Assembly (NCBI GenBank): GCA_016930435.1
Contig: JAFGGQ010000075.1
Coordinates: forward strand, 1 to 20,731
Direction: 5' to 3'
From: a bacterium
GTDB lineage: Bacteria; UBP14; UBA6098; JAFGQG01
DNA: 20,731 bases
Shown: piece by piece, positions 1,705 to 18,656 of the stretch
Numbering within the stretch: position 1 is the first letter of the stretch
Layout: the number at the start of each line of letters is the position of its first letter
Position numbers and translations under genes: made by a program
Notes under the pieces: model-generated
Databases searched by the model: none
What the model was told of the DNA's origin: nothing
Seen by the model: the letters and a program-made list of their open reading frames with translations, nothing else

Positions 1705-2748
1705 TTACATGGTCAAAGCCATAACCGCCTTTTGAACATGGAGCCGGTTTTCAGCTTGATCGAAAACAACCGAATGGCGCCCATCGATTACATCATTGGT
1801 AACTTCAAATCCCCGGTCACATGGCAAGCAGTGCATATATATAACATTATTATTACACACTGTCAATATATTCTCGTCGCAGATCCAATCCCTATTGGCT
1901 TCGTAAAGAACTTTTGTTTGATCCAGTTGAGGTTCGCCAACATTAGGCGGAAGGAACTTAAAACTGGTCCAGCTTTTGGGATACACGATATCAGCATCCT
2001 GGAAAGCTACTCTCATATCATTACAAATTTCAAATGTTCCACCGTTTTTTTGTGAATTCTGTTTTGTAAACTCCAGCACTTCGGGATCCAGTTCGAAGCC
2101 CTTGGGGTGGGCAAGGACAATATTCAGGTTAGTAAAACTGGCCCCTATGATTGCGCTCTGGGGTACGGAGAGTGGTTTTTCGATACTGGGAGAATAAGCC
2201 CAGCTCATTACGAATTTTCTGTTCCGCAGTTCATTGCCATACTTCTCTTTAATAGTAAGAATATCGGCCAATGCCTGGCAGGGGTGGTACTTATCGCATT
2301 CCATATTGATGACCGGTTTTTCGGACCACCGTGCGAATTCGCGCAGAACACGGTGTGCTTTGCCATAGATCCAGTTTACCGGTTCACCATATATTCTGAT
2401 GGAGATCCCATGGCCCATCCGGGATAGAACCCGGGCAACATCAGATACCCGTTCCGTGGAATAAGCTTCTTCATCGCCTTCAAGTGCCGGTGTGTAGATC
2501 TTCTTGGGATCCAAAAAATGAGCATGTCCGCCCAATTGGGTCATTCCGGCTTCAAAACTGTTACGGGTGCGCAGGGATTGATTATAAAATAGCATGAACA
2601 GACTCTTGTCCTGCAGTAACCGATGGGGTTCTCCCAGGGCGAATTTCTTCTTGAGGTCCAGAGCGACTTCCAAAATGGTTTCCACTTCCTCTCTGCTGAA
2701 CTCCATTAAAGTCAAAAAATCTCTTCCCCGAAAATTATGTGTTATCAT
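1705..2748 (-). CDS. ygeW: YgeW-like knotted carbamoyltransferase
   Basis: Member of the aspartate/ornithine transcarbamylase superfamily, which transfers a carbamoyl group between carbamoyl phosphate and an amino group. The 347 residues carry the carbamoyl-phosphate signature SLRTR (58-62), the HPCQ motif (155-158) and HCLP (306-309). The conserved C-terminal block ENRLHVQKA is shared with knotted acetylornithine and succinylornithine transcarbamylases and YgeW. The residues after HCLP (CDRGFEVT) differ from the LRRNVKAT I recall for acetylornithine transcarbamylase, and the neighbours are catabolic, so YgeW is preferred over an arginine-synthesis enzyme. In YgeW-containing clusters the enzyme is thought to run in the catabolic direction, making carbamoyl phosphate for ATP; the substrate here is not known. 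A GGAGG (2753-2757) precedes the ATG. It lies 25 bases after the cysteine-synthase-like gene and is the last gene of the minus-strand run. Confidence 0.85.
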   Translation of the reverse strand: MITHNFRGRDFLTLMEFSREEVETILEVALDLKKKFALGEPHRLLQDKSLFMLFYNQSLRTRNSFEAGMTQLGGHAHFLDPKKIYTPALEGDEEAYSTERVSDVARVLSRMGHGISIRIYGEPVNWIYGKAHRVLREFARWSEKPVINMECDKYHPCQALADILTIKEKYGNELRNRKFVMSWAYSPSIEKPLSVPQSAIIGASFTNLNIVLAHPKGFELDPEVLEFTKQNSQKNGGTFEICNDMRVAFQDADIVYPKSWTSFKFLPPNVGEPQLDQTKVLYEANRDWICDENILTVCNNNVIYMHCLPCDRGFEVTNDVIDGRHSVVFDQAENRLHVQKAVMALTM

Positions 2749-2773
2749 TTTTCCTCCGGCAAATCATAGTTTA

Positions 2774-3823
2774 CTATTCGATTATCTCCCACCCGGCCTG
2801 ATACTTATCCAGCTCGGAAATTGTATATTCATCCATAGGGTGCTTACGTTCCGGGATGTCGAGTATCTTCGTCTCACCGCAGAGTTCGGTGGAAAAATAC
2901 CGCTGCCCGGTATCATTGATCATGGTTGCTATGCTCTTTATCTCCGGGTGCAGACGGGCCAGCTTGATTGCAGCGGCAACATTACTCCCCGAGGATATTC
3001 CGCAAAAGAGGCCTTCCTCAACCGCTAACCGTTTACCCATCTCGATAGCTTCATCAGAGGTAGTGAGGATAATCCCATTTAAAAGGGAAAGGTCCAGGTT
3101 AAAGGGTACAAAACCATCCCCGATCCCCTCTATACGGTGTGATCCCCATTCCCTCCTGGCCAGCATTGGCGCCTCGGCTGGTTCAATGGCATAGAGCATT
3201 AAACCGGGATTTTTTTTCCGGAAAAAGCGCCCAACACCGGTCAGGGTTCCGCCCGTACCCTGGGTTGCAATAAAGGCGTCTATATTGCCTCCGGTCTGAT
3301 CCCAGATCTCTGGACCGGTAGTCTCAAAATGAGCCATAATATTATTATTATTGTCATATTGACCCACTTCCCAGTATTTCCCAGGATTTTTCTCTTTCAT
3401 CCTTCTGGTAAGTTCAAGGCAAAGATCCACATCACTCTCAGCGCCGGGTGTGAATAGGATATTTGCGCCATACATACGCATCAGTTTCTTGCGCTCCTCG
3501 GACATCCCTTCCGGCATTACAATGGTTACTTTGTAACCATACATTCGCCCGACAAATGAACAGGATATACCAGCATTTCCCGTGGAAGTCTCAATTATTT
3601 CCATACCGGGTTTCAGCTCTCCGCTCTCGATCGCCCGGGTGATCATCTTGTAATAAATGCGGTCCTTTAAACTGCCTGTTGGGCTGAACCACTCCAGCTT
3701 GCAGAAAATATCGGCATTAATCCCTTCCTGCCTGGGAATCTTGTTGAGTTTGATCAAAGGGGTTAACCCAATGGTCTCGAAGATATTTGAGGCGCACTTA
3801 CCCCTTTTTAACCAATTTACCAT
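2774..3823 (-). CDS. Cysteine-synthase/CBS-family PLP enzyme (fold type II)
   Basis: Fold-type-II PLP enzyme of the cysteine synthase / cystathionine beta-synthase family, which performs beta-replacement or beta-elimination on serine-type substrates. The start used is the second in-frame ATG, because GGAG at 3830-3833 sits six bases before it; an ATG at 3835 would add four residues without a site of its own. Numbered from this start (349 residues), the PLP lysine is K53 in SPTGSLKDR, the substrate loop is STGNA (80-84), the phosphate loop is GTGGT (189-193), and GISSGSN near 276-282 supplies the serine contacting the PLP nitrogen. The loop reads STGNA rather than the usual TSGNT of CysK. It lies between a threonine-synthase-like gene and ygeW, which suggests a catabolic beta-eliminase (for example on a diaminopropionate or ureido amino acid) rather than cysteine synthesis. 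This is an inference; ordinary cysteine synthase remains possible. Confidence 0.85.
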   Translation of the reverse strand: MVNWLKRGKCASNIFETIGLTPLIKLNKIPRQEGINADIFCKLEWFSPTGSLKDRIYYKMITRAIESGELKPGMEIIETSTGNAGISCSFVGRMYGYKVTIVMPEGMSEERKKLMRMYGANILFTPGAESDVDLCLELTRRMKEKNPGKYWEVGQYDNNNNIMAHFETTGPEIWDQTGGNIDAFIATQGTGGTLTGVGRFFRKKNPGLMLYAIEPAEAPMLARREWGSHRIEGIGDGFVPFNLDLSLLNGIILTTSDEAIEMGKRLAVEEGLFCGISSGSNVAAAIKLARLHPEIKSIATMINDTGQRYFSTELCGETKILDIPERKHPMDEYTISELDKYQAGWEIIE

Positions 3824-3829
3824 AGTATT

Positions 3830-3833
3830 CTCC
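3830..3833 (-). promoter_or_regulatory. Ribosome binding site choosing the start at 3823
   Basis: On the minus strand GGAG is followed by six bases (AATACT) and ATG. The site overlaps the upstream in-frame ATG ending at 3835, so that ATG cannot use it. This favours the shorter 349-residue product. Confidence 0.5.
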
Positions 3834-3879
3834 ATTGATGATGAAAGTTAGTTCTTGCTGCCTTGTGTAATATTTACTC

Positions 3880-3908
3880 TTTAAAAATCAATATCCGTAT
3901 TATCTCAA
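3880..3908 (-). promoter_or_regulatory. Candidate internal promoter before the cysteine-synthase-like gene
   Basis: On the minus strand TTGAGA (3903-3908) and TTTAAA (3880-3885) are spaced by 17 bases, about 50 bases before the start. The 175-base gap here is unusually long for an operon whose neighbouring junctions are an 8-base overlap and a 25-base gap, so an internal promoter is reasonable. The -10 match is weak. Confidence 0.3.
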
Positions 3909-3998
3909 CTTCCATGTTGGTCTAACATCGTTTTCTTATCTCTTGCAGAGGTTAATCACTAAATAAATCTCAAATTATTATGATGTCAATGACTGCGC

Positions 3999-5252
3999 TT
4001 AAAATAGCCCAAATGACAGCAAAGCATTTTCAATATCATCCAAACCGGGTTCAACGATCAGCGGTTTTTCCTTTACCGCCATCATTGCCGAATCGATATC
4101 CTTTAAGCCATTGCCGGTAATTATCACCACGATCTTTTCGCTGGCATCGATCTCCCGTAAGTCAACCATCTTTCTCAACCCGGCATAGCCTGCAACCCCG
4201 GCAGGCTCGCCGAAAACGCCGGATCCCCTTGCGACAAGCGGTATCGCTTCCAGAATCTGGTCATCGGAAACGGTGATCATTTTCCCCCCGGATTCCCGAA
4301 CCGCTCGCAAAGCCTTGACCTGGTCCCGTGGATTACCTACGGAAATGCTATCCGCAACTGTCTCAGGTATTAAGGTTTCAGCCATGTCTTTCCCTTCAAC
4401 AAAGGCCTTCACCAAAGGAGCTGCTTTTTCAGCCTGTACCCCGATCAACTGAGGTAATTTATCTATAAAGCCAAGCCTGTAAAAATCCTGAAACCCCTTC
4501 CATAATCCTGCAATTATGCATCCATCCCCAACCGAAACGAAAACTTTATCAGGAGCCTTCCAGCTGAGTTGCTCACAAATCTCCAGGGCAGCGGTCTTTT
4601 TTCCTTCACCCAGATAAGGATTGATAGCCGTGTTCCGGCAGTACCATTGCCATTTATTAGCGGCCAAACGGCATTGGTCGAAGGCGTGATCGTAGGTTCC
4701 CCTGATCATCAGTACTTTAGCGCCAAAGCTCAGCAATTGAGCTACTTTCGCGCGTGGAGCATTTTCGGGGACAAAGATCAGGCAATCCAATCCGGTCACT
4801 GCAGCAAAAGCGGAAAGAGAGGAAGCAGCATTACCGGTGGAAGCGGTTGTAATAACCCGGGCCCCTTTTTCAAGGGCTTTAACCACCGCTATTGAGCTCG
4901 CCCTATCCTTCATAGAGGCAGTTGGATTTTTCCCCTCGTCCTTGATATAAAGACCATTTAAGCCCAATTGTTCACCCAGTTTTTCGGCCTTATAAAGTGG
5001 TGTGAAGCCAACCTGAAGGGGTGGGATTAGTTGCGGCTGGTCAACCGGGAGCAGGGGAAGATATCGCCAATGGGAATACTCATGTGAATTTTCTAATGAT
5101 GCTTTGCTTAACTGGCTTTTTATAAACTCATAATCATAAACGACATCCAGCGTGCCTGATATATCCCCGCAGTAAGGGCAGGTATATTCGGTATCCGAAG
5201 TGGAATAGGTTTTACCGCAGGATACACATTGCAAGTGCAGTATATTACTCAT
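3999..5252 (-). CDS. Threonine-synthase-like PLP enzyme with N-terminal zinc ribbon
   Basis: Fold-type-II PLP enzyme of 417 residues. An N-terminal zinc ribbon has cysteines C9, C12, C25 and C28. The PLP lysine is K115 in NPTASMKDR, and the substrate loop is STGNA (138-142). GSGVFGEPAGVAGYAGL near 342-358 matches the C-terminal part of the threonine synthase family. Classical threonine synthase has NPTGSFKDR, so two loop positions differ. No homoserine kinase or homoserine dehydrogenase gene is nearby. Its ATG overlaps the end of ssnA by eight bases, which implies translational coupling. Together with SsnA, YgeW and Xdh this suggests a catabolic lyase or ammonia-lyase role, perhaps replacing YgeX (diaminopropionate ammonia-lyase) of E. 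coli-type clusters; that is an inference. A true threonine synthase cannot be excluded. Confidence 0.85.
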   Translation of the reverse strand: MSNILHLQCVSCGKTYSTSDTEYTCPYCGDISGTLDVVYDYEFIKSQLSKASLENSHEYSHWRYLPLLPVDQPQLIPPLQVGFTPLYKAEKLGEQLGLNGLYIKDEGKNPTASMKDRASSIAVVKALEKGARVITTASTGNAASSLSAFAAVTGLDCLIFVPENAPRAKVAQLLSFGAKVLMIRGTYDHAFDQCRLAANKWQWYCRNTAINPYLGEGKKTAALEICEQLSWKAPDKVFVSVGDGCIIAGLWKGFQDFYRLGFIDKLPQLIGVQAEKAAPLVKAFVEGKDMAETLIPETVADSISVGNPRDQVKALRAVRESGGKMITVSDDQILEAIPLVARGSGVFGEPAGVAGYAGLRKMVDLREIDASEKIVVIITGNGLKDIDSAMMAVKEKPLIVEPGLDDIENALLSFGLF

Positions 5253-6570
5253 TTGAGAACCTCCGCCACATCCCTTCAGCTGCTTTTCGTGCTCTGGTCA
5301 GCATTTCGTTTTCGTTAAATGTCAATATTCGGCGATCCCTCATTATCAGTTTGCCATTTACAATAAGGGTTTGCACGGGAGCCCCGGAAATCCCGAAAAG
5401 AAAATGGTACCACCAGTTCTGTAAATTCAGCGGGGTCGGGGGTTCATAATCTACTAATATCAGATCGGCACTTGCCCCTATCTCTATTTTCCCCAGAGTC
5501 TTTCCCCAAAATTGCGAAGCCAGTCCGGGATTATTTTGCGTGAATACCATTTTGAGCTCATCTGTGCCCATGGCAGGGTCACGGTAGATTAGCTTCGGCA
5601 AAAGATTTCCAATCCTTAATGCTTGAGGCATACTTGAGGAATAGCCATCGGTACCCAAAGCCACTTTAACACCCCGATCCATCATACGGAGTATGGGCGC
5701 GTAGCCAACCCCATTATTCATATTGGATTCCGGATTATGGATGACCCGGGTCGCCCTTTCGGCCAGAAGTCCAATCTCTCCATCACTTAGGTCCACTCCG
5801 TGCACGGCAAGTGTTTTAGGTCCCAGAAGGCCATGATCATCCAGGCGTTCCACCACCCTTTTACCGTAATTGCAGATAGAATCGTCCACATCAATGTGGT
5901 CTTCGGCAACATGAAGGTGGTACCCGGAATCGAGCTGGTTACCAAAATGCTCACATTCCCGGAGTGTCTGGTCGGAGAGCGTAAATGAAGCGTGTAGTCC
6001 GAATGAAGCGCGCAGTAATTCGGGATTTTCGCTTTGGCAGTACCGGATAAAATCCCGGTTTTCCTGTATTCCTTTTTGGGCTTGGTCCAAGCCATTGCGG
6101 TCAGATACTTCATAGCAAAGGCAGGCCCTTAAACCAGCTTCCTGAACGGCAAGGGCTATCGTCTGCAAGGATCCCAGAATATAATTGGGGCTGGCATGAT
6201 GATCGAAAAGAGTGGTTGTGCCTGATTTTATGCTATCTATCAATGCCGCCATTACGCTATAGTATAAGCTTTCCTGGTCAAGAACGCGATCCACTTTCCA
6301 CCATAGGTCTTTCAAAATATTACCAAAATTTGAGGGGGTATTTGAAATCTGTATCCCCCGGGCTAAAGAGCTATAAAGATGCGTATGGGCATTTATGTAT
6401 CCGGGCAGGCAGCTCCCGCCCCGGGCTTCGATAATATCAGCCTCGGGAGCAATAAGAGCAGGACCTATTGCCTTTATTAATCCTCCTTCAATCAAGATAT
6501 CTTCACCTTTTCTCAAAGGGTCCCTATCATTGAAAGTAAAGATAGAAGCGCTTTTTATCAATAGAGACAT
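5245..6570 (-). CDS. ssnA: SsnA-type amidohydrolase
   Basis: Metal-dependent hydrolase of the amidohydrolase superfamily, in the branch with guanine deaminase, chlorohydrolases and SsnA. Its 441 residues are close to E. coli SsnA. Metal and catalytic residues visible are H62 and H64 (NAHTH), H220 with E223 (HLHVAE), H257 (VHGVD) and D308 (GTDGYSSSM). The family hydrolyses C-N bonds, usually ring deamination; the exact SsnA substrate is not firmly established to my knowledge. SsnA is a marker of anaerobic purine/urate catabolic clusters together with YgeW and molybdenum hydroxylases, both present here. An AAGGAAA site precedes the ATG. The stop codon lies 17 bases from the TldE-like gene on one side, and the 3' end overlaps the threonine-synthase-like gene on the other. 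The product should be cytoplasmic, since no signal peptide is seen. Confidence 0.87.
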   Translation of the reverse strand: MSLLIKSASIFTFNDRDPLRKGEDILIEGGLIKAIGPALIAPEADIIEARGGSCLPGYINAHTHLYSSLARGIQISNTPSNFGNILKDLWWKVDRVLDQESLYYSVMAALIDSIKSGTTTLFDHHASPNYILGSLQTIALAVQEAGLRACLCYEVSDRNGLDQAQKGIQENRDFIRYCQSENPELLRASFGLHASFTLSDQTLRECEHFGNQLDSGYHLHVAEDHIDVDDSICNYGKRVVERLDDHGLLGPKTLAVHGVDLSDGEIGLLAERATRVIHNPESNMNNGVGYAPILRMMDRGVKVALGTDGYSSSMPQALRIGNLLPKLIYRDPAMGTDELKMVFTQNNPGLASQFWGKTLGKIEIGASADLILVDYEPPTPLNLQNWWYHFLFGISGAPVQTLIVNGKLIMRDRRILTFNENEMLTRARKAAEGMWRRFSNE

Positions 6571-6587
6571 TATCGGATTTCCTTGAT

Positions 6588-8300
6588 TTATTCATTGATA
6601 AAATATGGGTGTTCCAGAAGGGGAGGCTTCTCCAGCTTGCCTCCGCCTGGTATGATCTCCATATCCTCTATCAGGATAGAAGGGGTAACCAGTGAAACCG
6701 GGATGTCCCCTGAAAAACCACGGCTGATCAGGTTATAAACATTCTTTTCCCGGGAAATCCCAACAATATCCCGAAGGATCAGTATAGTAAGGTTACTGAT
6801 CTTGACATTCTGAATAAGCTCTTCCCTTCTATCATCAGCGTAAATCTTATATGCATAAAGGGGCGCAGTCAATCCGATTTCATTCTCATCGGAAGGCTGG
6901 GCGAATCGTTCATTTTCCAGCTTTTTTATGATTATGCCATATTCAAGGTTCTGAGCAACACAGCGGTCTATCAGCTCATTTTTAAGTTCATCTACCGGCA
7001 GGCTTTCTTCGGTTTCCACAGTGAGGTTGCTAATCCTTCCACAGATAGAATACCCCATCGCTGCTCTGCCATGGCCATTGGATCCCTCGCTATGCTTACT
7101 GGGGTAACGATGGCTAAGGAACTCTTTGAGCGAACCTTCCTCAACCACATTTACAACCCGGGCGGGAAACCCCTCATCATCAACTTCATAACTGCCCACA
7201 ACTTCTTTTCCATCATATTCCAACAGGTATGGATCATCTTTTACTGAAATATCAGGAGGGAGAATATTTCTATCCTTTTTATTATCCAGGTAGTTCCGTG
7301 GTATATAATGCTCCTGCCAATCCTCTTCTGTAAGCGGTGAAAGGGGCAGGGATAGGTTTTTACCAAGGAGTTGATAGAAGAACTCCGCTGCAGCCTGACC
7401 TTCCAGGATAACTGGTCCTACATAATAATCGAGGGTATCGGCGTCCAACAGTCGGGAGAACTCCAGTGCCCATTCCCTCACCTCCCCGATCAGCGCAGTC
7501 TGGTCAGGAAAAAAGCTAAAGGAACGCGCGTAGAATGTTTTCTGGTCATTAAATTCCAACCCTTCTTTATTCCGGGAATTAATAAACACCTCCAGGCTGA
7601 TCAATGGGGCTTTCTGCTTGACCATTGTGCCCTCCGAATTCACAAAATATTTGGTGACGTCCTGAAGTCTGAAATTGGCCTGTGAAGTATGGATTTCCGG
7701 AAACTCCCTGAACAGACCGGACAATTCCCGAATCCTTTCCTTCCAGTAGATGGTATCGGATTCAAGTGGAATATCAGTCTGGATGAACTGAAAGGGTTCT
7801 TCTTTAGTAAAATTCGGGGTACTGTCCTTAATAATGCGGTTTTGCAGGTTAGCTTTTTTCTGAGCCAGGGCTTCCAGCGCAGATTTGTACTCCTGGTCGG
7901 TATGGTACCACAGCTTATGGCGGATAGCATCATAATCATTTTCAAGAGGCATCATGTGATTAGAGCGGCGGGAGAAACGCCAGGCGTTGGATCCGATGAA
8001 ATTTGTATTATCAAAGGAGTAATCGCCCACCCGGATCTCTATGCTAAGCTGCCGTGATCTATCCTGCCGGGACTCCAGTATTGCTCCGAAAGAGGCTTTC
8101 AATTCAAATTGCTTAAGATCCTGAATCCTGTAGCTTATAAAATAAGGAGGATCATAACCTTCCAGACTGAGCTCGTTTACGGAACGCCCTATCTCGTCCC
8201 TCATAGCCTGGAGGACGATGTCATCAGCAGCATGAAGCGCTGATATAACCCCGGTTATCAGGATCACCATTATTAATGTCATAACAATGATTTTTTTCAT
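6588..8300 (-). CDS. Secreted TldE/PmbA-like protein lacking the protease motif
   Basis: Paralogue of the neighbouring TldD-like gene: both share the N-terminal layout (an RVGD block followed by DNT), the NSEGT core segment, and the C-terminal NV[FY]N...IPVS block. Where the neighbour has HEIFGH, this protein reads YQLLGK (Y309 to K314). The conserved C-terminal cysteine is replaced by serine (SRGFSGD). It therefore looks non-catalytic, as TldE/PmbA is relative to TldD. The start chosen is 8300 because GGAG (8306-8309) precedes it and residues 1-24 (MKKIIVMTLIM... ending ALHA) form a clear signal peptide. An upstream in-frame ATG at 8351 would add 17 unlikely residues. Length is 570 residues from this start, larger than cytoplasmic TldD/E (about 450-480). 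It probably forms an extracytoplasmic heterodimer with the TldD-like protein. The gap to that gene is about 175 bases. Confidence 0.75.
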   Translation of the reverse strand: MKKIIVMTLIMVILITGVISALHAADDIVLQAMRDEIGRSVNELSLEGYDPPYFISYRIQDLKQFELKASFGAILESRQDRSRQLSIEIRVGDYSFDNTNFIGSNAWRFSRRSNHMMPLENDYDAIRHKLWYHTDQEYKSALEALAQKKANLQNRIIKDSTPNFTKEEPFQFIQTDIPLESDTIYWKERIRELSGLFREFPEIHTSQANFRLQDVTKYFVNSEGTMVKQKAPLISLEVFINSRNKEGLEFNDQKTFYARSFSFFPDQTALIGEVREWALEFSRLLDADTLDYYVGPVILEGQAAAEFFYQLLGKNLSLPLSPLTEEDWQEHYIPRNYLDNKKDRNILPPDISVKDDPYLLEYDGKEVVGSYEVDDEGFPARVVNVVEEGSLKEFLSHRYPSKHSEGSNGHGRAAMGYSICGRISNLTVETEESLPVDELKNELIDRCVAQNLEYGIIIKKLENERFAQPSDENEIGLTAPLYAYKIYADDRREELIQNVKISNLTILILRDIVGISREKNVYNLISRGFSGDIPVSLVTPSILIEDMEIIPGGGKLEKPPLLEHPYFINE

Positions 8301-8305
8301 TATAT

Positions 8306-8309
8306 CTCC
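8306..8309 (-). promoter_or_regulatory. Ribosome binding site setting the start at 8300
   Basis: Minus-strand TGGAG followed by ATATA and ATG AAA AAA. This site plus the lysine-rich signal peptide beginning there make 8300 the likely start rather than the ATG at 8351. Confidence 0.65.
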
Positions 8310-8475
8310 AGTAAGTGAGTTGTGATTTGGCAGAGAATTTATAATATACATTTTGATTTGATAATATTAGTATGTTCTAAATTGACTTTTCCATTTTTCA
8401 AAAACCTTTTTGCGCATTTTATACACCCTTTCCGCCGATTAGAAGAGGGCGCGCTTCTTTCCAACATCCTATCGG

Positions 8476-10161
8476 TTAATCATGATGAGGAGGGTTAAGA
8501 ATAGGGGGTTTATCTTCGGATTTTGCACTTTTTTCAACTTCGATCTGAGAGACCAGCATACTTGGAGCGATACCGGAAACCGGGATGTAACCTGATTCAG
8601 CGCCGCAGTAGCCGTTGAAAACGTTGTAGTCATCAGCAGCAGCAATGATCCTGGTCAGGCTGGAAAGGGGTGTACCCACGATATCGACCCCCCGAACCAG
8701 CTCGTCCGGCCGCCCGTCGGCATATACCTTATAAACGATTACCGGTTTGACCTTGAAAGCCTGGGGAGTCCAGCGTCCGGTCATGGTAAATCCCCCGGAG
8801 ATATCTTCGAAAACCAATCCATATTCTTTTTGCTGCGATTTTAATTCCTCGATCAGGGCTGCTTTTAGATCGGCATAAGGTATGGTCCGGGTGGATTCAA
8901 CGAACAAATTCCCTTGACGGGATACGATTTTATTGCCATATTGTCTCCGGCCATGACCTCCTGATTGGTTAAAACCTTCTACCGGAGTTCGGCACATCAG
9001 GAAATTTATCAGAACCCCATTCCTTACAACATCTACTCTTTGAGCTTCTACCCCTTCGTCATCATAAAGATAGTGGCCATTAAGGGAAATCCCATTATAA
9101 TATTTCTGGTTAGGGTCGTCGTAAATATTTATGAAATCGGGCATGACCAGCTCGCCCACCTTTTTTTTAAAGGTCTGGCCATTGCTGACCTGTTTCAGTC
9201 GATGTCCTTCGATGCGGTGTCCGAATATTTCGTGGAAAAATACTCCGGCAGCGCGGCTTTTCATTATTGCCGGACCTGTAAAGGGTTCGACTACAGGGGC
9301 TTTACGAAGTGCGTTCAGCTGATAGATAATGGTATCTATAGTACTTAAAATACTTTCTTCATCGGGTAATTCGTCAAAACACGCCACGTCAAAGCTTTTA
9401 TAAATATTAAGGTCCATACCGTCATCAGCCTTGGTCTCGCCGTAGAGTGATAAACGAATAAAATCCCGGCCCATCTGAATACGGGTGCCCTCCGAATTGA
9501 CAATGAATTTGTTTTCCTGCTTAACTGTCAGTCCGATAGACGAGTAATATATGTTGGGATCCTCTTTAAACAACAGTGAATACGTTTTAAGTCTGTCTAT
9601 CCAGGGTTTTCTGTCCCAGGAAATCTCATTAAGATCTTCTATGTGGATATTTTTCGGTGCTGGGGAAAAGTCCGGGGAATTGTCTTCCTCTTCGACCTTA
9701 ACCGCGATATTCGCTTTGACTTTGGTAAAGGCCATCTGCACTTGTTTAAACTCCAGATCGGTTTCATACCACAGTATAGCTTTAATAGCTGAAGGATCAT
9801 CTTGAATAGCGATGTCCTTTCCGCCCTGCCGATCATCTGCCCAGTAGCCCCGTATTTGATGTGTATTATCAAGTTGAAAATCCCCCACCCTGAGATCCAC
9901 ATCGAGGTATCGCTTCCGGTTATACGCATCATCCATCAAGGCGCCCATTGAAGCGAGCAATCTGGTCTCGGTTACTTCTGTAACTTCATAAGCCATAAAG
10001 TAAAGGGGGGCTTCGCCCAGTTCCTTCAGTTCCTTGAAGGAGCGGTTTAATTCCTCCCCCATGGCTTTCAGGAGCAGGCTCTCCTCAGCATTCACTCCAG
10101 TGATTATAAATACCTTGATCAACAGTACTGCAATCAAAGGCAAAATGTTTATTCGGCGCAT
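8476..10161 (-). CDS. Secreted TldD-like zinc metalloprotease
   Basis: TldD/PmbA-family metalloprotease of 561 residues. The family's HExxxH signature is present as HEIFGH (H310, E311, H315), followed by RIEGH. A cysteine at C519 (YCGAESG) matches the position of the third zinc ligand in TldD. Residues 1-25 (MRRINILPLIAVLLIKVF... ending NA) are a signal peptide, so the enzyme should act in the periplasm or on the surface; E. coli TldD is cytoplasmic. TldD/E proteases degrade unfolded peptides inside a closed chamber, for example processing microcin B17 and degrading CcdA. The substrate here is unknown. A strong AAAGGAG site lies six bases before the ATG, and the gene starts 18 bases after the PreA-like gene, so both are likely co-transcribed. 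It pairs with the motif-less paralogue downstream. Confidence 0.83.
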   Translation of the reverse strand: MRRINILPLIAVLLIKVFIITGVNAEESLLLKAMGEELNRSFKELKELGEAPLYFMAYEVTEVTETRLLASMGALMDDAYNRKRYLDVDLRVGDFQLDNTHQIRGYWADDRQGGKDIAIQDDPSAIKAILWYETDLEFKQVQMAFTKVKANIAVKVEEEDNSPDFSPAPKNIHIEDLNEISWDRKPWIDRLKTYSLLFKEDPNIYYSSIGLTVKQENKFIVNSEGTRIQMGRDFIRLSLYGETKADDGMDLNIYKSFDVACFDELPDEESILSTIDTIIYQLNALRKAPVVEPFTGPAIMKSRAAGVFFHEIFGHRIEGHRLKQVSNGQTFKKKVGELVMPDFINIYDDPNQKYYNGISLNGHYLYDDEGVEAQRVDVVRNGVLINFLMCRTPVEGFNQSGGHGRRQYGNKIVSRQGNLFVESTRTIPYADLKAALIEELKSQQKEYGLVFEDISGGFTMTGRWTPQAFKVKPVIVYKVYADGRPDELVRGVDIVGTPLSSLTRIIAAADDYNVFNGYCGAESGYIPVSGIAPSMLVSQIEVEKSAKSEDKPPILNPPHHD

Positions 10162-10179: not shown

Positions 10180-11409
10180 TTATTCTATTATCTTCATGGT
10201 AATACAATTCTCAATGGGGCAGACGACCTTGCATAACCCACAACCGACGCATTTTTCATCATCAACATGGGGGAGGCGATCCGCAGTAACTTCAATCGCT
10301 TCGTGACCGCCGTCCCTACAGGCTGTGAAGCAAAGATTACATTTTAAGCAGGAATCCTGGTCGATTCGGCTACGTGCTTTGATCCTGGGCAATTCTTCAT
10401 GATCCACGATATAGGGCAAAGCTTTCCCTGTGATCTCCTTAGGTGAGTTAAATCCTTTTCGTAGGAGAAATTGTGACAAACCGCTTTTTAAATCGTCAAT
10501 AATCCCGAATCCATAGCGCATCACTGCGGTGCAATATTGAACGATCCCGGCGCCCACAGCCATGAATTCAACCGCATCCCTCCATGTGGAAGCTCCACCG
10601 GTCCCGCTGATAGGAATATCCACGTTTCGAGCTATCTCAGCGATAGTGCGGAGTGTTAATGGTTTGATTGCCGGACCGGATAATCCGCTATAGGTGGACT
10701 TACCGCCAACATTCGGAAAAGGGATGAATGAATCCAGATCGATGCCCATAAGGGAGGGCAGTGTATTACTTGCTGTAATTGCGTCCGCACCTGCTTCCCG
10801 GAGGACATTCGCCACGGCTATTATATCGGCAACCTGTGGTGTGATCTTGATCATTACCGGGATATGCCGGGCAGCTTCTTTCACCCATTCCGCAACCATC
10901 CTGGAAGCTTCAACACTCTGGCCCAACATCCGGCCAGATTGCTCTCCAATGCTCCCCTGGGGACAGGAAAAACTGCACTCGATCATATCCGCACCCGCAC
11001 CCTCCAGACGTTCGGTCAGAATTTGCCAGTCATCTTTCCGGGAACCCATGATGCTGCCGACAACCACTTTATTCGGGTAGCGCTTTTTCAATGAAATAAC
11101 CCGTTTTTCAACCTCCAGTATATGATGTCTGGAGATCAGGTCGATATTCCCCATCCCTACTAGTTTCCGACGAGCAAAATGGTACCCGCTGATCATGGGG
11201 TAGGCCAGAGACACATCCTGCCCCTCTACCGAAGTAGTCTTCAGAACCGCGCCAGCCCATCCATAATCAAATCCTCGGGCTACCATACTCTCATCATCCG
11301 TTGATGGCGAGGCAGCAAGCACAAAAGGGCTATCAAACTTAACTCCGCAGAATTCAATCGACAAATCTAAAAGCGAAAACAGATCCGAACGATGATACTC
11401 ATCTTCCAT
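10180..11409 (-). CDS. PreA-like dihydropyrimidine-dehydrogenase-fold flavoprotein with two 4Fe-4S clusters
   Basis: Resembles E. coli PreA (about 411 residues) and the C-terminal half of eukaryotic dihydropyrimidine dehydrogenase, which reduce the C5=C6 bond of uracil or thymine. The 409 residues comprise an FMN-binding TIM barrel (SCPQ at 148-151, SNTLPSLMG near 214-222, ISGTGG at 267-272) and a C-terminal ferredoxin domain with cysteines C354, C357, C360, C364 and C387, C390, C393, C397. In dihydropyrimidine dehydrogenase the loop after SCPH carries a catalytic cysteine (C671 in pig); a by-eye alignment puts L162 at that place, so the substrate may not be a simple pyrimidine. The usual NADH/FAD partner PreT is not in the window; electrons could come from a ferredoxin. 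It sits 46 bases after the nitroreductase and 18 before the TldD-like gene, inside a purine-catabolism-like operon. A role as an N-heterocycle reductase is inferred. Confidence 0.85.
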   Translation of the reverse strand: MEDEYHRSDLFSLLDLSIEFCGVKFDSPFVLAASPSTDDESMVARGFDYGWAGAVLKTTSVEGQDVSLAYPMISGYHFARRKLVGMGNIDLISRHHILEVEKRVISLKKRYPNKVVVGSIMGSRKDDWQILTERLEGAGADMIECSFSCPQGSIGEQSGRMLGQSVEASRMVAEWVKEAARHIPVMIKITPQVADIIAVANVLREAGADAITASNTLPSLMGIDLDSFIPFPNVGGKSTYSGLSGPAIKPLTLRTIAEIARNVDIPISGTGGASTWRDAVEFMAVGAGIVQYCTAVMRYGFGIIDDLKSGLSQFLLRKGFNSPKEITGKALPYIVDHEELPRIKARSRIDQDSCLKCNLCFTACRDGGHEAIEVTADRLPHVDDEKCVGCGLCKVVCPIENCITMKIIE

Positions 11410-11455: not shown

Positions 11456-12025
11456 TCAGATATCCAAAACCAGCTCATCCACCCTCCACTTGGGAACATG
11501 GTGAGTCCCGGCATCATCTCGCCAATAGCGGGTATCCCCATCCTTAACTTCCTCAACCACCACTTTCTCTTTGGGTTTCCCGAGTGCTACCACCAGAACT
11601 ATATCATACAAATCGGGAATGCTCAGGCTCTCCCTCAGTTTTTGCTTTTTCATGGAACCGAACATACAGCCCCCAAGGCCCTTTTCCACCGCTCCAAGAA
11701 GAATATTCTGAGCAGCGATTCCATGGTCGCATCCGCATGAATCACCCACCTCATTATCCCTTAATATAACTACGTAAGCAGAAGGGCGTTCTCCCTCTGA
11801 CGGACAGGGCCAGTCTTCAATAAAACGTGCCCAACCCAAAGTCTCAAAGATAAGGGCATTCTTATCGGGTTCATTGGAAAGGATGTAACGCAAAGGCTGC
11901 CGATTGCTGGCAGATGCCCCTAACCGGGCTAAACCCACCAATTCCCTCAACGTCTCACCGCTGATTTGATGATCCTGGAAAAAACGGCGGTAACTGCGGT
12001 TCTTTTCAATTAGTTCCCTAATCAT
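11456..12025 (-). CDS. Nitroreductase-family flavoprotein
   Basis: FMN-dependent nitroreductase fold of 189 residues. The N-terminal RSYRRF (10-15) and SASNRQPLRY (38-47) match the FMN phosphate- and ring-binding motifs, and EKGLGGCMFGS in the C-terminal half matches the family's GLG segment. Members reduce nitro groups, quinones, flavins or enoate-like substrates using NAD(P)H; the substrate cannot be told from sequence. AAAGGAG is placed eight bases before the ATG, and a near-consensus promoter lies directly upstream, so this is the first gene of the proposed long operon. Its position before the PreA-like reductase suggests it might feed electrons to, or act next to, that enzyme. This is an inference from order only. 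Confidence 0.85.
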   Translation of the reverse strand: MIRELIEKNRSYRRFFQDHQISGETLRELVGLARLGASASNRQPLRYILSNEPDKNALIFETLGWARFIEDWPCPSEGERPSAYVVILRDNEVGDSCGCDHGIAAQNILLGAVEKGLGGCMFGSMKKQKLRESLSIPDLYDIVLVVALGKPKEKVVVEEVKDGDTRYWRDDAGTHHVPKWRVDELVLDI

Positions 12026-12052
12026 TATATAAACTCCTTTTCGTTTTCCTAA

Positions 12053-12080: not shown

Positions 12081-12098
12081 TCGAATATTTATCATTAT

Positions 12099-13640: not shown

Positions 13641-13686
13641 GGCAACCCAATACTGTTTTTTGTAATATTATCTGCGGATTAATCTC

Positions 13687-13692
13687 ATTATA
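13687..13692 (-). promoter_or_regulatory. Candidate -10 element (TATAAT) for the amidotransferase-like gene
   Basis: A perfect TATAAT on the minus strand about 47 bases before the start of the 513-residue gene. No good -35 hexamer is seen at the proper distance, so confidence is modest. Confidence 0.3.
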
Positions 13693-13892
13693 ACCGATAG
13701 ACCTTACTGCTGAAGCCGGGTATAGGCAACTTCGCCGGATTGCTATCCATGCCGGGAGGATCATAACACTGCAGGCATCGTAAAGCATTTTCCTGGGTTT
13801 GCTGTAAATTTTTCAGGAACACCTCTATCAGATAATGTTTCTAATGATTTTCAAGCAATTTATACGCACCTGAAAATTTTTAGCCCGGTTCT

Positions 13893-14303: not shown

Positions 14304-14342
14304 TCAGCATTATCTCCTTTCCGCTTGATTTCGATATTCCAT

Positions 14343-14371
14343 AATTTAATCATCATTGCATATTATGTCAA
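14343..14371 (-). promoter_or_regulatory. Sigma-70-type promoter for the 136-residue exported protein
   Basis: Minus-strand TTGACA (14366-14371), a 17-base spacer, then TAAATT (14343-14348). The -35 is perfect and the -10 matches four of six. It lies about 40 bases before the ATG, and separates the Xdh genes from the secreted-protein genes as transcription units. Confidence 0.55.
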
Positions 14372-14573
14372 CCCAGAGATTATGTTCAGGGTAGATAAAT
14401 AATTTTCCCCATATTGTCCGGCAACTAATTTAAGTTTTTAAAAAGATCCGACACTAATAACGAACCGCCATAACCAAAGATAGCCTGAAGTCAACCTTTT
14501 CATCAAATCCTTATTTGGAAAAGCAAAGCACGCGGCAAAAATAAATATCTTATAATAAGCGCTTCTCGATCAG

Positions 14574-15029
14574 TTATTGATTCGATACCGATTTAATTGC
14601 TTCAATTATTTGTTTATATCCCGTACACCTGCAGAGATTTCCCGAGATTGCTATTTTTATCTCTTCTTCCGTGGGATGGGGATTCTTATCCAAGAGCGCT
14701 TTAGCGCTCATCAGCATCCCCGGTGTGCAAAATCCGCAGTGTACCGCTTCATGTTCGATAAAAGCCTTTTGCAGTATTGAGAGCTCTCCATTTTCTTCCA
14801 GGCCTTCCACTGTGAAGATCTCACTACCATCTGCCTGAGGCGCTAAAACCAGACAGGAGTTCACCGCGTCTCCATTCATGATAACAGTGCAGGCACCACA
14901 TTCCCCGATCTCGCAGCCACGTTTTGTTCCGGTTAATCCCAGTTCATCCCGAAGCAGATCCAGCAGTGTAAGATTATGTTCGATCTCCAGACAATATCGC
15001 TTGTTATTTACCTTAATCTCGATTTTCAT
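14574..15029 (-). CDS. xdhC: Xanthine-dehydrogenase-type 2Fe-2S subunit
   Basis: Small iron-sulfur subunit of a molybdenum hydroxylase, 151 residues, the usual length. The plant-type 2Fe-2S cluster uses C39, C44, C47 and C59 (CEIGECGACT). The second cluster uses C98, C101, C133 and C135 (HCGFCTPG and NLCRCTG). It passes electrons from the Mo centre to FAD or an external acceptor. The residue before CGFC is histidine (H97); most family members have glutamine there, next to the molybdopterin. It is the third Xdh gene in order, 21 bases after the FAD subunit; naming follows E. coli, where xdhC is the iron-sulfur subunit rather than the maturation factor. No clear ribosome binding site was seen, so coupling to the upstream gene is likely. 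Confidence 0.92.
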   Translation of the reverse strand: MKIEIKVNNKRYCLEIEHNLTLLDLLRDELGLTGTKRGCEIGECGACTVIMNGDAVNSCLVLAPQADGSEIFTVEGLEENGELSILQKAFIEHEAVHCGFCTPGMLMSAKALLDKNPHPTEEEIKIAISGNLCRCTGYKQIIEAIKSVSNQ

Positions 15030-15050
15030 GGTATTTATATGCTAAAGCAT

Positions 15051-15935
15051 TTATTTTACGGCAACCCCAGGTTTCAAGTTAAAGATAGCCTGCAGGCTTC
15101 TCCTGACAAGGGCGGCAATAACCGGTTTTTTGTATTCTGTTGACCAGCGTACACCGGTAATCTCAACCATTTTTCGGGCAACCATATCACCGGCTTTTGA
15201 AAACAAACGTTCAGAGGGTTCATTACCCAGAAGGTATTCCTCCACTTCGGTGAATCTGAAAACATTTGGGGTAGTTGAGCCCGGCACTATTCTTATATAG
15301 CATATCTTGTTATTACTGTCAATCATTCCACAGGCGGCTACCTGTAGTCGGGCTATGGACAGGGCTTCTCTTCTACCGAGTTTAATGAAATTGCTACGGC
15401 AACCTTCCGGTAGCTTTTTAAACCTTATCCAGGTAAGGAACTCATCATTTGCCCTGTTGGTTTTATATGCACCCCTGATGAAACCGGAAAGCAATTCTGT
15501 ACGGTTTCCGGAGGAGCTTTCCAGTGTCAACTCGGCATCCAGGGCTACCAGTGGTGGAAGGGTATCGGCACAGGGAGCGGCATTGCAGATATTACCTCCC
15601 AACGTGCCCCTGTTCCTTATCTGTGCAGATCCTACCAGTGAAGAGGCTTGTGTGAGAAATCCGGCGTGCCTACCAAGGAGTATTGATTCGACCATTTGAG
15701 AGTGCTTAACAAGAGCGCCTATCCTGATAAAATGACCTTCATCCTCAATCTTATTTAACAATTTAATCGAAGATATGTCAAGAATTATTACCTTTCTATT
15801 CTGTTTTTCACTCCGGAGCTCCGGCAACAGATCGGTTCCTCCAGCCAGTATTCTAATGGCATGCTTGTTCTGAGCAAGGATATGGACCGTTTCTTCAACC
15901 GTATTGGCTTTATAATATTTGATTTCCGGTAACAT
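15051..15935 (-). CDS. xdhB: Xanthine-dehydrogenase-type FAD-binding subunit
   Basis: FAD subunit of the CO dehydrogenase/xanthine dehydrogenase family, 294 residues, normal length. The two FAD-binding signatures are ILAGGTDLLP (29-38) and IRNRGTLGGNICNAAPCAD (106-124). The C-terminal part matches the CO_deh_flav_C domain. It receives electrons from the 2Fe-2S subunit and reduces NAD+ or another acceptor. An AGGAT site is about nine bases before the ATG. It lies 112 bases after the Mo subunit and 21 before the iron-sulfur subunit, so all three form one unit. Confidence 0.92.
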   Translation of the reverse strand: MLPEIKYYKANTVEETVHILAQNKHAIRILAGGTDLLPELRSEKQNRKVIILDISSIKLLNKIEDEGHFIRIGALVKHSQMVESILLGRHAGFLTQASSLVGSAQIRNRGTLGGNICNAAPCADTLPPLVALDAELTLESSSGNRTELLSGFIRGAYKTNRANDEFLTWIRFKKLPEGCRSNFIKLGRREALSIARLQVAACGMIDSNNKICYIRIVPGSTTPNVFRFTEVEEYLLGNEPSERLFSKAGDMVARKMVEITGVRWSTEYKKPVIAALVRRSLQAIFNLKPGVAVK

Positions 15936-16047
15936 GATCTGATTATCCTATTATTCTTTGGAGGTCACCTTAATAAAAAACCTTTTCGTATCGTATTCAT
16001 TACCAATGTTTACACTTTTGCGCTGGTTACTTAATTATAATTATCAT

Positions 16048-18366
16048 CTACTTTTCTTCGCTGCCCCTTTTGGAAATTCTTTTTAGCTTGTGATCCAGCA
16101 GTACCTTTTCCAGGTCCGCTGGTAATTCCCTGATCCTCTTTCCGGTAGCATGGCATATCGCATTCAGTATTGCAGGTGCGGCCAATTCGGTAGCTGGTTC
16201 ACCGATACTTTTCGCTCCGAATGGTCCGAGGGGATCGGGATTTTCTACTATTATTGCTTTCATATCCGGTATATCACAAGCTGTAGGGATCAGGTATTCA
16301 TCAAAATTATAGCATTGGGGTTCCCCTTCCTGTATGCTGAATTCTTCCATTAATCCATAGCCCATACCCATCACCAATCCGCCATAGATCTGTCCTTCCA
16401 CGCCGGCGCGATTAATTGCTTTCCCTACATCATGGGCAGCGGCAATACGGATCACCTTGACCTGCCCTGTCTCGGTATCCACTTCGACTTCCGCTACATT
16501 ACAGCCATATACAAATGTAAAATATGCCTGGCCCTGGCCGGTTTTCTCATCCCATGTTGTAGATGGGCTTTTATGCCAGCCAAATCCGAATAATTTTACT
16601 CCCCGATTGAAGCATTCCCCTGCCAGAGCGGAAAAGCTGGTCTTCTTTGTTCTATTTTTTGAGGAGAATATCCAATTATTATACATTATCAAATTATCAA
16701 TAGATTCGTCAAGAATTATTGAGGCTTCCTTCAGCATGGAATCCCTTACTGTTTCAGCGCCTTTCTTAGCTGCGGAACCGCCCATGATAGTACCTCGTGA
16801 AGCCACTGTAGGGCCGCTATCGGAGATCCGGGAGGTATTTACCGGGAAAAAGGTTATTCGGTCCGGGGAGATACCCAGCACTTCTGAAGCGATTATGGCC
16901 TGGGCCGTCTGTGCTCCCTGTCCCATATCGCTGATCCCCGACCACATGATAACCGAACCATCACTTTGGACCGAAACTACCGTCGCTGCGGCATCTATCC
17001 CCTCCGCGCCCAGGGATACTCCCCTGTAGCTGCAGGCAAGTCCTATGCCCCTTTTTATGTAATCCTGATTACGTTTTTCCCCCTCATAGAGGGCCCGTTT
17101 CATCTCCCATTTCATCTCCCCGGCAGCCTTTTGCAGTACCTCTTTAAGGCTCACCCCGGGATTGAGTTTCTGGCCGGTTGCGGTAACCGAGCCTTCTGTA
17201 AAGCAGTTTTTCAACCTGAGTTCCAGGGGGTCGAGATTCAGTTCCTGAGCAAGTTCATCCATTAGTGATTCAATTGCGAAGTTTACCTGTGGTGATCCGA
17301 ATCCCCTCATCGCACCGGTATATGCCTGGTTGGTATAAACCGCAAAGGCATCTGTTTTTACATTGAGGCATTCATAAGGCCCGGCAGCCTGTACTGCCGA
17401 ACGCCATGTCACGAATGGGCTCATCGATGCATAGGCGCCGGCATCGGCTATAATACGGGCTTCGATAGCAGTAAGCCTTCCATTTTTCTTTGCCCCGATC
17501 TTATAATAAAGGATGTAGGGATGCCGCTTGTAACTTTCCAGAAAAGATTCTTCCCGGGTATTGACCATCTTCACCGGCCGGCCTGTTTTTAGGGCTAAAA
17601 GTGCGGCCCGGCAACAGAGTGAGGTCATAACCTCGTCCTTGCCCCCAAAGGACCCACCCATAGTAGCCTGTTCAATCTCAACCCGGTTCATGGGAATCCC
17701 CAGAACCTCCGATACTGAACGCCTCGTGGAATAAGCATTCTGGGCGCAGCATTCTATCTTTATACCATCTCCCGGGAGGGGAAGAGCCAGGGCGGCTTCA
17801 GGTTCAAGATAAGAATGTTCGATCCGCTGGGTACGATAAGACCTTTTTAGGATTACCTCAGCCTCCTGAAATCCCTTCTCTATTGACCCCCTTCTGACTT
17901 TATGATGGATAAAAACATTATCCCCCTGGTGAATTCTGGGGGCATCTGGCTTCATGGCCTCTTCCACATCAAATACTGCCGGAAGAAGCTTGTATTCCAC
18001 CCGAATCAAACCGACTGCCTCACGGGCCTCCCTTTCGGTTAGGGCAGCCACTATAGCTACCCCGTCCCCAATAAAACGTACTTTATCTTCGGCCATTACG
18101 CTCTGGTTTTTAACAACTACCCCGAATACCCTTGCTCCCGGGATGTCACTCGCGGTTAAAGCTGCTATTACCCCTTTTTTCCGCGTAGCCGCATTGGTGC
18201 TAATTTGGAGAATTCTGGCGTGAGGATACGGACTGCGCAGCACCGCTCCATAAAGCATTCCGGGAAAACAACGGTCAGCAGCGTACAGTGCCCTTCCGGT
18301 TACCTTGCCAAAAGCGTCCAGACGACCGGTATATTGACCCACAACATTATGCTCTTTTTTTTGCAT
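16048..18366 (-). CDS. xdhA: Xanthine-dehydrogenase-type molybdenum-binding subunit
   Basis: Large subunit of a molybdenum hydroxylase, 772 residues. It binds Mo-molybdopterin cytosine dinucleotide and hydroxylates an N-heterocycle or aldehyde with water as oxygen donor. Motifs: GGSFGGKD (F240, K243, D244), AMRGFGSPQ (R354), SDMGQGAQT (Q483) and GAKSIGEPATELAAP with the catalytic glutamate E723. R354 and E723 are conserved as in xanthine dehydrogenases; at D244 xanthine dehydrogenase usually has glutamate (GGFGGKE), so purine specificity is likely but not certain. Other possible substrates are hypoxanthine-like purines or nicotinate. AAAGG lies about five bases before the ATG. The gene follows the small ferredoxin by 95 bases, separated by a strong hairpin. 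No in-frame UGA or selenoprotein signal was noted. XdhC/CoxI-type maturation factors are not in the window. Confidence 0.92.
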   Translation of the reverse strand: MQKKEHNVVGQYTGRLDAFGKVTGRALYAADRCFPGMLYGAVLRSPYPHARILQISTNAATRKKGVIAALTASDIPGARVFGVVVKNQSVMAEDKVRFIGDGVAIVAALTEREAREAVGLIRVEYKLLPAVFDVEEAMKPDAPRIHQGDNVFIHHKVRRGSIEKGFQEAEVILKRSYRTQRIEHSYLEPEAALALPLPGDGIKIECCAQNAYSTRRSVSEVLGIPMNRVEIEQATMGGSFGGKDEVMTSLCCRAALLALKTGRPVKMVNTREESFLESYKRHPYILYYKIGAKKNGRLTAIEARIIADAGAYASMSPFVTWRSAVQAAGPYECLNVKTDAFAVYTNQAYTGAMRGFGSPQVNFAIESLMDELAQELNLDPLELRLKNCFTEGSVTATGQKLNPGVSLKEVLQKAAGEMKWEMKRALYEGEKRNQDYIKRGIGLACSYRGVSLGAEGIDAAATVVSVQSDGSVIMWSGISDMGQGAQTAQAIIASEVLGISPDRITFFPVNTSRISDSGPTVASRGTIMGGSAAKKGAETVRDSMLKEASIILDESIDNLIMYNNWIFSSKNRTKKTSFSALAGECFNRGVKLFGFGWHKSPSTTWDEKTGQGQAYFTFVYGCNVAEVEVDTETGQVKVIRIAAAHDVGKAINRAGVEGQIYGGLVMGMGYGLMEEFSIQEGEPQCYNFDEYLIPTACDIPDMKAIIVENPDPLGPFGAKSIGEPATELAAPAILNAICHATGKRIRELPADLEKVLLDHKLKRISKRGSEEK

Positions 18367-18413
18367 TTGCCTTTATTAATTAACTGAACGTCATAGGGCT
18401 GATTGCAAAGGCC

Positions 18414-18440
18414 TTCCCGTATTCCTAATCAATACGGGAA
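18414..18440. promoter_or_regulatory. Perfect 10-bp inverted repeat between ferredoxin and xdhA
   Basis: TTCCCGTATT (18414-18423), a 7-base loop, then AATACGGGAA (18431-18440), pairing perfectly. It lies between the ferredoxin stop and the xdhA start. No T run follows on the minus strand, so it is not a classical intrinsic terminator. It could be an RNA-processing or stability hairpin, an attenuator, or an operator for a dimeric regulator. Confidence 0.55.
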
Positions 18441-18461
18441 TATGCTTCTCTTCTAAGCATA

Positions 18462-18656
18462 CTATTCAATTATCAGGATAGCATTGTTGGGACAGAGTCT
18501 GGCGACCCTTCTGATTTTTTGTTCCAGTTCCCAGGGAATATCACCAGGCATAGCCATCGCTTTTTTACTGCCTGACTGAAAACGAAAGATTTCAGGGCAT
18601 TCCTGCACACATATACCAGCAGTGCCGCATTTTACCTGGTCAACTTTTACCCTCAT
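18462..18656 (-). CDS. Small single-cluster ferredoxin
   Basis: 64-residue ferredoxin of the divergent 3Fe-4S/4Fe-4S type. Cysteines are C10, C16, C20 and C55 (KCGTAGICVQECPE and RLCPNNA). The usual second ligand of the CxxCxxC motif is alanine (A13), so the cluster is probably 3Fe-4S, or 4Fe-4S with a non-Cys ligand, using C10, C16 and C55. It is preceded by AGGAG about six bases before the ATG. It opens the molybdenum hydroxylase unit and may carry electrons from Xdh, or to the PreA-like reductase encoded downstream; this pairing is inferred from context. Confidence 0.88.
   Translation of the reverse strand: MRVKVDQVKCGTAGICVQECPEIFRFQSGSKKAMAMPGDIPWELEQKIRRVARLCPNNAILIIE

Follow-up and report, generated by a model that had tools for sequence, protein, structure and literature searches.

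We analyzed a gene cluster in a 20,731 bp stretch of DNA (the window), which is one entire contig (JAFGGQ010000075.1; G000:C110) of the metagenome-assembled genome (MAG) GCA_016930435.1, hereafter G000 (2.85 Mb, 90%-complete, 180 contigs). The cluster encodes a molybdenum (Mo) hydroxylase, a PreA-like reductase, the amidohydrolase SsnA, two pyridoxal phosphate (PLP) enzymes and a carbamoyltransferase (CT). We give about an even chance to the reading that the window encodes the greater part of a variant anaerobic reductive urate (2,8-dioxopurine) pathway, in which a threonine-synthase-like (TS-like) enzyme would take the YgeX step and a second CT would replace YgeY. Li et al. elucidated this pathway in 2025 and used SsnA as its marker (PMC12507026). 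The points of interest are the TS-like subfamily and the two-CT version of the pathway, both proposed on comparative evidence.

Gene content of the window

The gene set was confirmed and resembles an operon. All cluster genes are transcribed from the minus strand, starting with the XdhA-, XdhB- and XdhC-like subunits (18366 to 14574), a small open reading frame (ORF) and a secreted protein. These are followed by a tight run of nitroreductase, PreA-like reductase, two TldD/PmbA-like proteins, SsnA, TS-like enzyme, CysK-like enzyme and CT_A. The SsnA and TS-like genes overlap by 8 bp, and the remaining intergenic gaps of the run are ~20-165 bp. Because the nitroreductase, the secreted protein (with a type IX secretion system (T9SS)-type tail) and the small ORF intervene before the PreA run, the Mo hydroxylase may be a separate transcription unit. 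The features are:

16048..18366, minus strand: XdhA-like Mo-hydroxylase large subunit, candidate urate/N-heterocycle (de)hydroxylase (MoCoBD_1/MoCoBD_2; tree clade; loop GGSFGGKDE)
15051..15935, minus strand: XdhB-like flavin adenine dinucleotide (FAD) subunit (FAD_binding_5, CO_deh_flav_C)
14574..15029, minus strand: XdhC-like 2Fe-2S subunit (Fer2, Fer2_2)
11456..12025, minus strand: small nitroreductase-family protein heading the tight run (PF00881)
10180..11409, minus strand: PreA-like flavin mononucleotide (FMN)/2x[4Fe-4S] reductase, proposed YgfK/UacX substitute (PreA model over cut-off)
8476..10161, minus strand: TldD/PmbA-like protein 1, apparent signal peptide (PF19289; 65% identical to the copy adjoining SsnA in G011)
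6588..8351, minus strand: TldD/PmbA-like protein 2, apparent signal peptide (PF19289; 48% identical to the copy adjoining SsnA in G011)
5245..6570, minus strand: SsnA amidohydrolase (NF005540, 525 bits, cut-off 444)
3999..5252, minus strand: TS-like PLP enzyme, proposed C3 diamino-acid lyase in the YgeX role (profile; motif NPYLGEGKKT / VGDG)
2774..3835, minus strand: CysK-like PLP enzyme with altered substrate motifs ETSTGNAG and GIGDGFVP (below all cysteine-synthase cut-offs)
1705..2748, minus strand: CT_A, a carbamoyltransferase related to N-acetylornithine carbamoyltransferase (AOTCase) and YgeW (profiles, structure match, tree)

A previous sequence-only reading of the window had listed the Xdh subunits, PreA-like protein, SsnA, two PLP enzymes and carbamoyltransferase correctly, and had left the two TldD/PmbA-like genes and the nitroreductase out of the same run. 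Its core idea, a variant yge/ygf-type pathway that uses substitute PLP enzymes and has carbamoyl phosphate and ammonia as end products, finds support in outline from comparative genomics.

The threonine-synthase-like enzyme

The window TS-like protein exceeds the cut-offs of curated threonine-synthase models (PRK08197, 307.6 bits, cut-off 303; thrC, 237 bits, cut-off 167), and it has the fold-type-II PLP class, the PTxSxKDR lysine motif and the overall sequence in common with threonine synthases. Judged by motif, however, it is not an ordinary threonine synthase. The solved threonine synthases 2zsj, 6cgq, 2d1f and 1uim share the motif NPxRxEGQKT, whose Arg (residue 160 in T. thermophilus numbering) is a ligand of the O-phosphohomoserine phosphate. 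All 21 TS-like sequences have another residue at this position, mostly Leu or Thr (Leu in the window enzyme), and VGNxGN is changed to VGDG. Five other paralogues of the same genomes keep the Arg (G018:C54, G021:C93, G022:C28, G025:C328 and G026:C39). The loss of an anion-binding residue would fit a phosphate-free substrate such as diaminopropionate. With the diaminopropionate ammonia-lyase YgeX, the TS-like enzyme would share the reaction, and it belongs to the same PF00291 superfamily. Identity between the two is only ~23% over partial length, and they form separate, fully supported branches in the tree, where the TS-like rows are not resolved as a single clade (open base). A second threonine-synthase-like gene in the genome, G000:C159 (L058:4875-5987), likewise lacks the motif Arg, so that no gene was recognized as the organism's biosynthetic threonine synthase.

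Scanning species genomes with an SsnA alignment gave 80 loci, 36 of which have at least two other pathway genes within 10 kb. A TS-like gene without YgeX was found in 13 of the 36, YgeX without a TS-like gene in nine, both in three and neither in 11. Because numerous contigs end early, these numbers are minimum values. The overlap rule overlooked the TS-like gene of L178, and genomes that are related do not count as independent. SsnA clusters with a TS-like gene occur in at least seven phyla, mostly without YgeX. The TS-like gene accompanies SsnA also in Bacillota, Mycoplasmatota, Chloroflexota, KSB1, Acidobacteriota, Verrucomicrobiota and Caldisericota, and the arrangement is thus not peculiar to one bacterium of the Fibrobacterota-Chlorobiota-Bacteroidota (FCB) group, as had been proposed. 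In a Haloplasma locus (L190), XdhABC, YgeW, YgfK, SsnA, YgeY, a TS-like enzyme, a ~490-aa PF00291 protein and HyuA occur in a genome with no YgeX, and Halanaerobium has YgeY, a CT, a TS-like enzyme and the ~490-aa protein clustered, also with no YgeX.

A published neighborhood survey treats every PF00291 protein in the vicinity of SsnA as a YgeX (PMC12507026), and the open literature we searched held no paper tying threonine synthase to the reductive urate pathway. The TS-like subfamily is widespread in such clusters and has apparently been unnoticed so far. Our comparison suggests that a distinct subfamily, told by a few residues, takes the YgeX step in many phyla.

Conservation within the phylum and in Eisenbacteria

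Seventeen genomes were compared within the phylum. The order TldD-TldD-SsnA-TS-CysK-CT_A is kept in G011, the family's one other genome, with G000/G011 identities of 84% for CT_A, 79% for the CysK-like enzyme, ~71% for the TS-like enzyme and 59% for SsnA. Such conservation means that the arrangement is not due to chance. In G011 a hydantoinase lies near a TldD-like gene. In both family genomes, TldD/PmbA-like paralogues are found one gene from the unlinked hydantoinase (G000:C39, L145:8430-10226; G011:C158, L146:11736-13526).

YgeY is over the cut-off in eight genomes of two other families of the phylum (f3 and f4). A genome of the same class as the window's (G016) has XdhB, XdhC, XdhD, HyuA, SsnA, a UacX-type reductase, YgeY, a CT and a TS-like enzyme in one cluster, and YgeX was not found in that genome. 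Within one class, the TS-like enzyme thus stands at the place expected of YgeX. On this comparison, the family of the window would further have lost YgeY and swapped its upstream enzymes.

Gene types that are spread over four G000 contigs occur together on two contigs of an Eisenbacteria MAG. Contig C345 (L170/L361) carries an XdhA of the C112 type (that of the second Mo hydroxylase of G000, described below), yqeB and XdhB, as well as a window-type XdhA (57%), XdhB, XdhC (69%), PreA (61%), HyuA, SsnA (~49%) and residues 1-285 of CT_A (66%). Contig C344 (L284) has residues 310-347 of CT_A (95%) at its end, together with CT_B (68% to G000:C69), carbamate kinase and a TS-like enzyme (55%). As both contigs break within CT_A, they are probably neighbors. 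Neither YgeY nor YgeX was found in this genome.

Absence of YgfK, YgeY and YgeX, and the second carbamoyltransferase

YgeX, YgeY, YgfK and dihydropyrimidinase are missing from the window, as the sequence-only reading had noted; a D-hydantoinase (HyuA) is however over its cut-off at G000:C39:29552-30904. Profile searches of the G000 genome gave no YgfK over the cut-off (best 343 bits with partial model coverage, cut-off 835), no match for YgeY and no YgeX (best 55 bits, cut-off 276). The 90%-complete genome therefore holds no full ygeX/ygeY/ygfK set outside the window; the presence of such a set would have spoken against a variant pathway. In G011, YgeX is absent as well, and the best YgeY match reaches 47 bits (cut-off 321.5).

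G000 has four carbamoyltransferases: CT_A in the window, CT_B on C69, an ArgF-clade enzyme on C11 and a PyrB-clade enzyme on C145. CT_A is under both YgeW models (173 bits, cut-off 453; 166 bits, cut-off 500), so the name YgeW given to it earlier does not hold, and it narrowly misses the AOTCase model (279 bits, cut-off 288). In the tree it falls within a clade of E. coli YgeW and cluster CTs (95/91), outside the YgeW sub-clade proper, and ArgF and PyrB fall outside the larger clade. CT_B also groups with YgeW and the cluster CTs, and it lies near a carbamate kinase gene, a proximity kept in G011. A ~315-aa protein is encoded between CT_B and carbamate kinase in both family genomes (G000:C69, L056:2798-3736; G011:C167, L356:4721-5677), with a weak EgtB/GldK-type match in G000.

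Among 23 SsnA genomes searched, six (G000, G011, G017, G025, G028 and G029) have no YgeY over the cut-off. The CT comparison covered five of these (G000, G011, G017, G028 and G029), all of which have a second CT. This is CT_B in G000, G011 and G017 and an aspartate carbamoyltransferase (ATCase)-like enzyme directly adjoining CT_A in G028 and G029, i.e., the second CTs of YgeY-less genomes have two different origins. Strict mutual exclusion between YgeY and a second CT is ruled out, as G037 and G038 have both.

There is precedent for such a replacement. In vitro, allantoate is phosphorolysed by a Rubrobacter pseudo-ATCase that takes the place of the hydrolase and whose gene adjoins one for carbamate kinase, and the pseudo-ATCase gene of Nocardioides adjoins a ygeW homologue, xdhABC and hyuA (PMC4016543). 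As is proposed here, a CT would stand in for an amidohydrolase of purine breakdown in both cases, a role shown in vitro for the Rubrobacter enzyme, a ureidoglycine carbamoyltransferase (PMC4016543). However, those enzymes belong to the ATCase branch and the Rubrobacter one acts on allantoate in an oxidative route, while CT_B is of the AOTCase/YgeW branch. The comparison suggests that some lineages phosphorolyse both ureido groups.

Upstream enzymes

The XdhA of the window groups in the tree with XdhA of Eisenbacteria, Halanaerobium and Opitutaceae. A second xanthine dehydrogenase (XDH) is found at G000:C112, with mocA- and yqeB-like neighbors. The loops of the C112 enzyme (GGAFGGKED, FRGFG) are those typical of ordinary xanthine dehydrogenases, and the window XDH has GGSFGGKDE and MRGFG. 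Glu606, the XdhD residue reported by Li et al. (PMC12507026), is present in XdhD of f3 and f4 and missing from both G000 XDHs. Assignment of the window XDH as XdhD is ruled out by the tree and the missing Glu606.

The PreA-like enzyme scores 449 bits against the PreA model (cut-off 335), shows 41% identity to PreA of E. coli and falls outside the 100/100 UacX-type branch of clostridial reductases. It keeps the SCPQG loop with the catalytic Cys, which UacX-type enzymes lack. Its 61% identical Eisenbacteria counterpart sits between XdhABC and HyuA. Long fused PreA-type reductases (~820-870 aa where complete) occur beside or close to SsnA in several phyla (L203, L212, L222, L225, L230 and L242), and the five that were aligned have SCPQG. 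These fused proteins may represent another kind of ring reductase, in addition to YgfK and UacX. The window SsnA is 40% identical to E. coli SsnA.

The CysK-like enzyme

G000 has four PF00291 genes: two in the window, the threonine-synthase-like gene on C159 and a CysK with canonical motifs on C96. The CysK-like enzyme of the window is under every cysteine-synthase cut-off (333 bits, cut-off 344), with ETSTGNAG in place of EPTSGNTG and GIGDGFVP in place of GIGAGF[IV]P; by motif it is not an ordinary cysteine synthase. The ~490-aa PF00291 protein, which accompanies the TS-like enzyme in 15 of 16 loci (Fisher p = 4e-6), has the motifs STGN and GIGDKHVP. Their resemblance to the CysK-like motifs suggests a common role, which may be that of a racemase, a second lyase or a beta-replacement enzyme. 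We do not give the YgeX step to this type, because L173 and L228 combine the ~490-aa protein with YgeX with no TS-like gene in the locus; the ~490-aa protein is thus disfavored as the YgeX counterpart. C342 of the Eisenbacteria MAG was considered as a ~490-aa PLP protein and did not match on inspection.

Proposed pathway

From gene content, gene order, motifs, phylogeny and the absence of YgfK, YgeY and YgeX in profile searches, we infer each substrate and reaction as follows. The Mo hydroxylases would interconvert purines, with the window XDH as the candidate for urate reduction and the C112 enzyme being xanthine-dehydrogenase-like. The PreA-like flavoenzyme, replacing YgfK or UacX, would reduce the pyrimidine-type ring, SsnA would open the reduced ring, and the hydantoinase encoded on another contig would yield 2,3-diureidopropionate. 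CT_A and CT_B, instead of YgeW and YgeY, would phosphorolyse both ureido groups, so that both end as carbamoyl phosphate, from which the carbamate kinase near CT_B would make adenosine triphosphate (ATP). The TS-like enzyme would then convert 2,3-diaminopropionate to pyruvate and 2 NH3, and the CysK-like enzyme may be an accessory PLP enzyme, the counterpart of the ~490-aa protein in other clusters. More tentatively, this would amount to a complete purine-to-pyruvate route without YgfK, YgeY and YgeX, having two YgeW-related CTs, a carbamate kinase that yields two ATP per purine, and a widespread, unrecognized subfamily of the threonine-synthase fold at its last step.

The reductive urate cluster of E. 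coli and C. difficile consists of XdhD, YgfK or UacX, SsnA, HyuA, YgeW or UacY, YgeY and YgeX (PMC12507026). The system of the window shares SsnA, a Mo hydroxylase, a PreA/PydA-type flavoenzyme and a YgeW-related CT with it, as well as the hydantoinase and carbamate kinase, which here lie elsewhere in the genome. It differs in having no YgfK, XdhD/XdhAC, YgeY or YgeX, in its PreA-type rather than UacX-type reductase, and in the presence of the TS-like and CysK-like enzymes, the second CT and the TldD-like pair. If the proposal is true, more organisms are able to use urate anaerobically and the expected ATP yield changes. Additionally, many proteins now called 'threonine synthases', 'cysteine synthases' or 'ornithine carbamoyltransferases' would receive a corrected annotation.

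Weighing the proposal

Several results speak against the proposed urate pathway. Neither XDH of the family groups with the known urate reductases, which form the XdhD and XdhAC clades, and this leaves the first step and the substrate unproven, and the PreA-like protein resembles the pyrimidine-type PreA. With the XdhD/XdhAC type lacking and the SCPQG loop being pyrimidine-like, urate is the most likely rather than a demonstrated starting substrate. In this MAG, no linkage connects the window with HyuA, CT_B, carbamate kinase or the second XDH. The contrast between TS-like enzymes and YgeX is not significant at the locus level alone (Fisher p = 0.16); the two occur together in Desulfosporosinus, and in G020 and G030 YgeX is encoded elsewhere in the genome. 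The latter two genomes have an ATCase-like enzyme together with a distant YgeY-like protein that is over the cut-off, is 36% identical to YgeY of E. coli and is encoded outside the cluster, and G037 and G038 hold YgeY, CT_A and an ATCase-like enzyme. The two-CT state may also come from only two evolutionary events.

Alternatively, the cluster could serve a pyrimidine or another N-heterocycle, with PreA and the D-hydantoinase forming a dihydropyrimidine pathway and SsnA, the CT and the PLP enzymes acting on a related ureido amino acid. This would account for the retained SCPQG loop and the identity to E. coli PreA, for the family's lack of a urate reductase of the XdhD or XdhAC type and for a HyuA-type enzyme that exceeds the D-hydantoinase cut-off. 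However, SsnA is over its own curated model, XDH, PreA, HyuA, SsnA and CT_A occur together in Eisenbacteria, and fused PreA-type reductases with SCPQG adjoin SsnA in Elusimicrobia, Opitutaceae and Alphaproteobacteria, and we regard a pyrimidine route as unlikely. Somewhat less probable still is that the TS-like enzyme is no diaminopropionate lyase and that it and the CysK-like enzyme cleave or substitute albizziin (ureido-alanine) directly, with release of urea or formation of a different amino acid. While the absence of YgeY beside two PLP enzymes, the altered substrate motifs in both and the coexistence of TS-like and YgeX genes in Desulfosporosinus would agree with this, f4, Haloplasma and Halanaerobium have the TS-like enzyme with YgeY and without YgeX, so that diaminopropionate should be the TS-like substrate there.

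We consider it very unlikely that the two PLP genes encode biosynthetic threonine and cysteine synthases that stand beside SsnA by chance, a doubt that the sequence-only reading had itself raised and that the motifs answer in the negative. The TS-like enzyme does pass PRK08197 (308 bits, cut-off 303), and C159, the sole other threonine synthase paralogue in the genome, is also without the motif Arg. Yet that Arg is lost in 21 of 21 relatives and kept in the aligned solved synthases and five other paralogues, a separate CysK with canonical motifs is present at C96, and the association with SsnA extends across many phyla. A role of CT_A and CT_B in arginine biosynthesis by the acetyl- or succinyl-ornithine route, rather than in ureido catabolism, appears highly improbable: their top profile and structure matches are AOTCases, but the genome also has an ArgF-clade ornithine carbamoyltransferase (C11) and a PyrB-clade enzyme (C145), and both CTs group with YgeW and the cluster CTs, CT_B being near carbamate kinase.

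Neighboring genes

No relative of the nitroreductase was recognized adjoining SsnA in G011. The secreted protein at 12099-13640, whose gene is one of those separating the PreA run from the Mo hydroxylase, has a FlgD-Ig domain, a T9SS-type sorting tail and a weak BPL_N match. A serpin gene at 110-1303 (PF00079, 381 bits) flanks the cluster, and a serpin of G011 that is 44% identical to it likewise lies near the cluster (L047:8491-9732).

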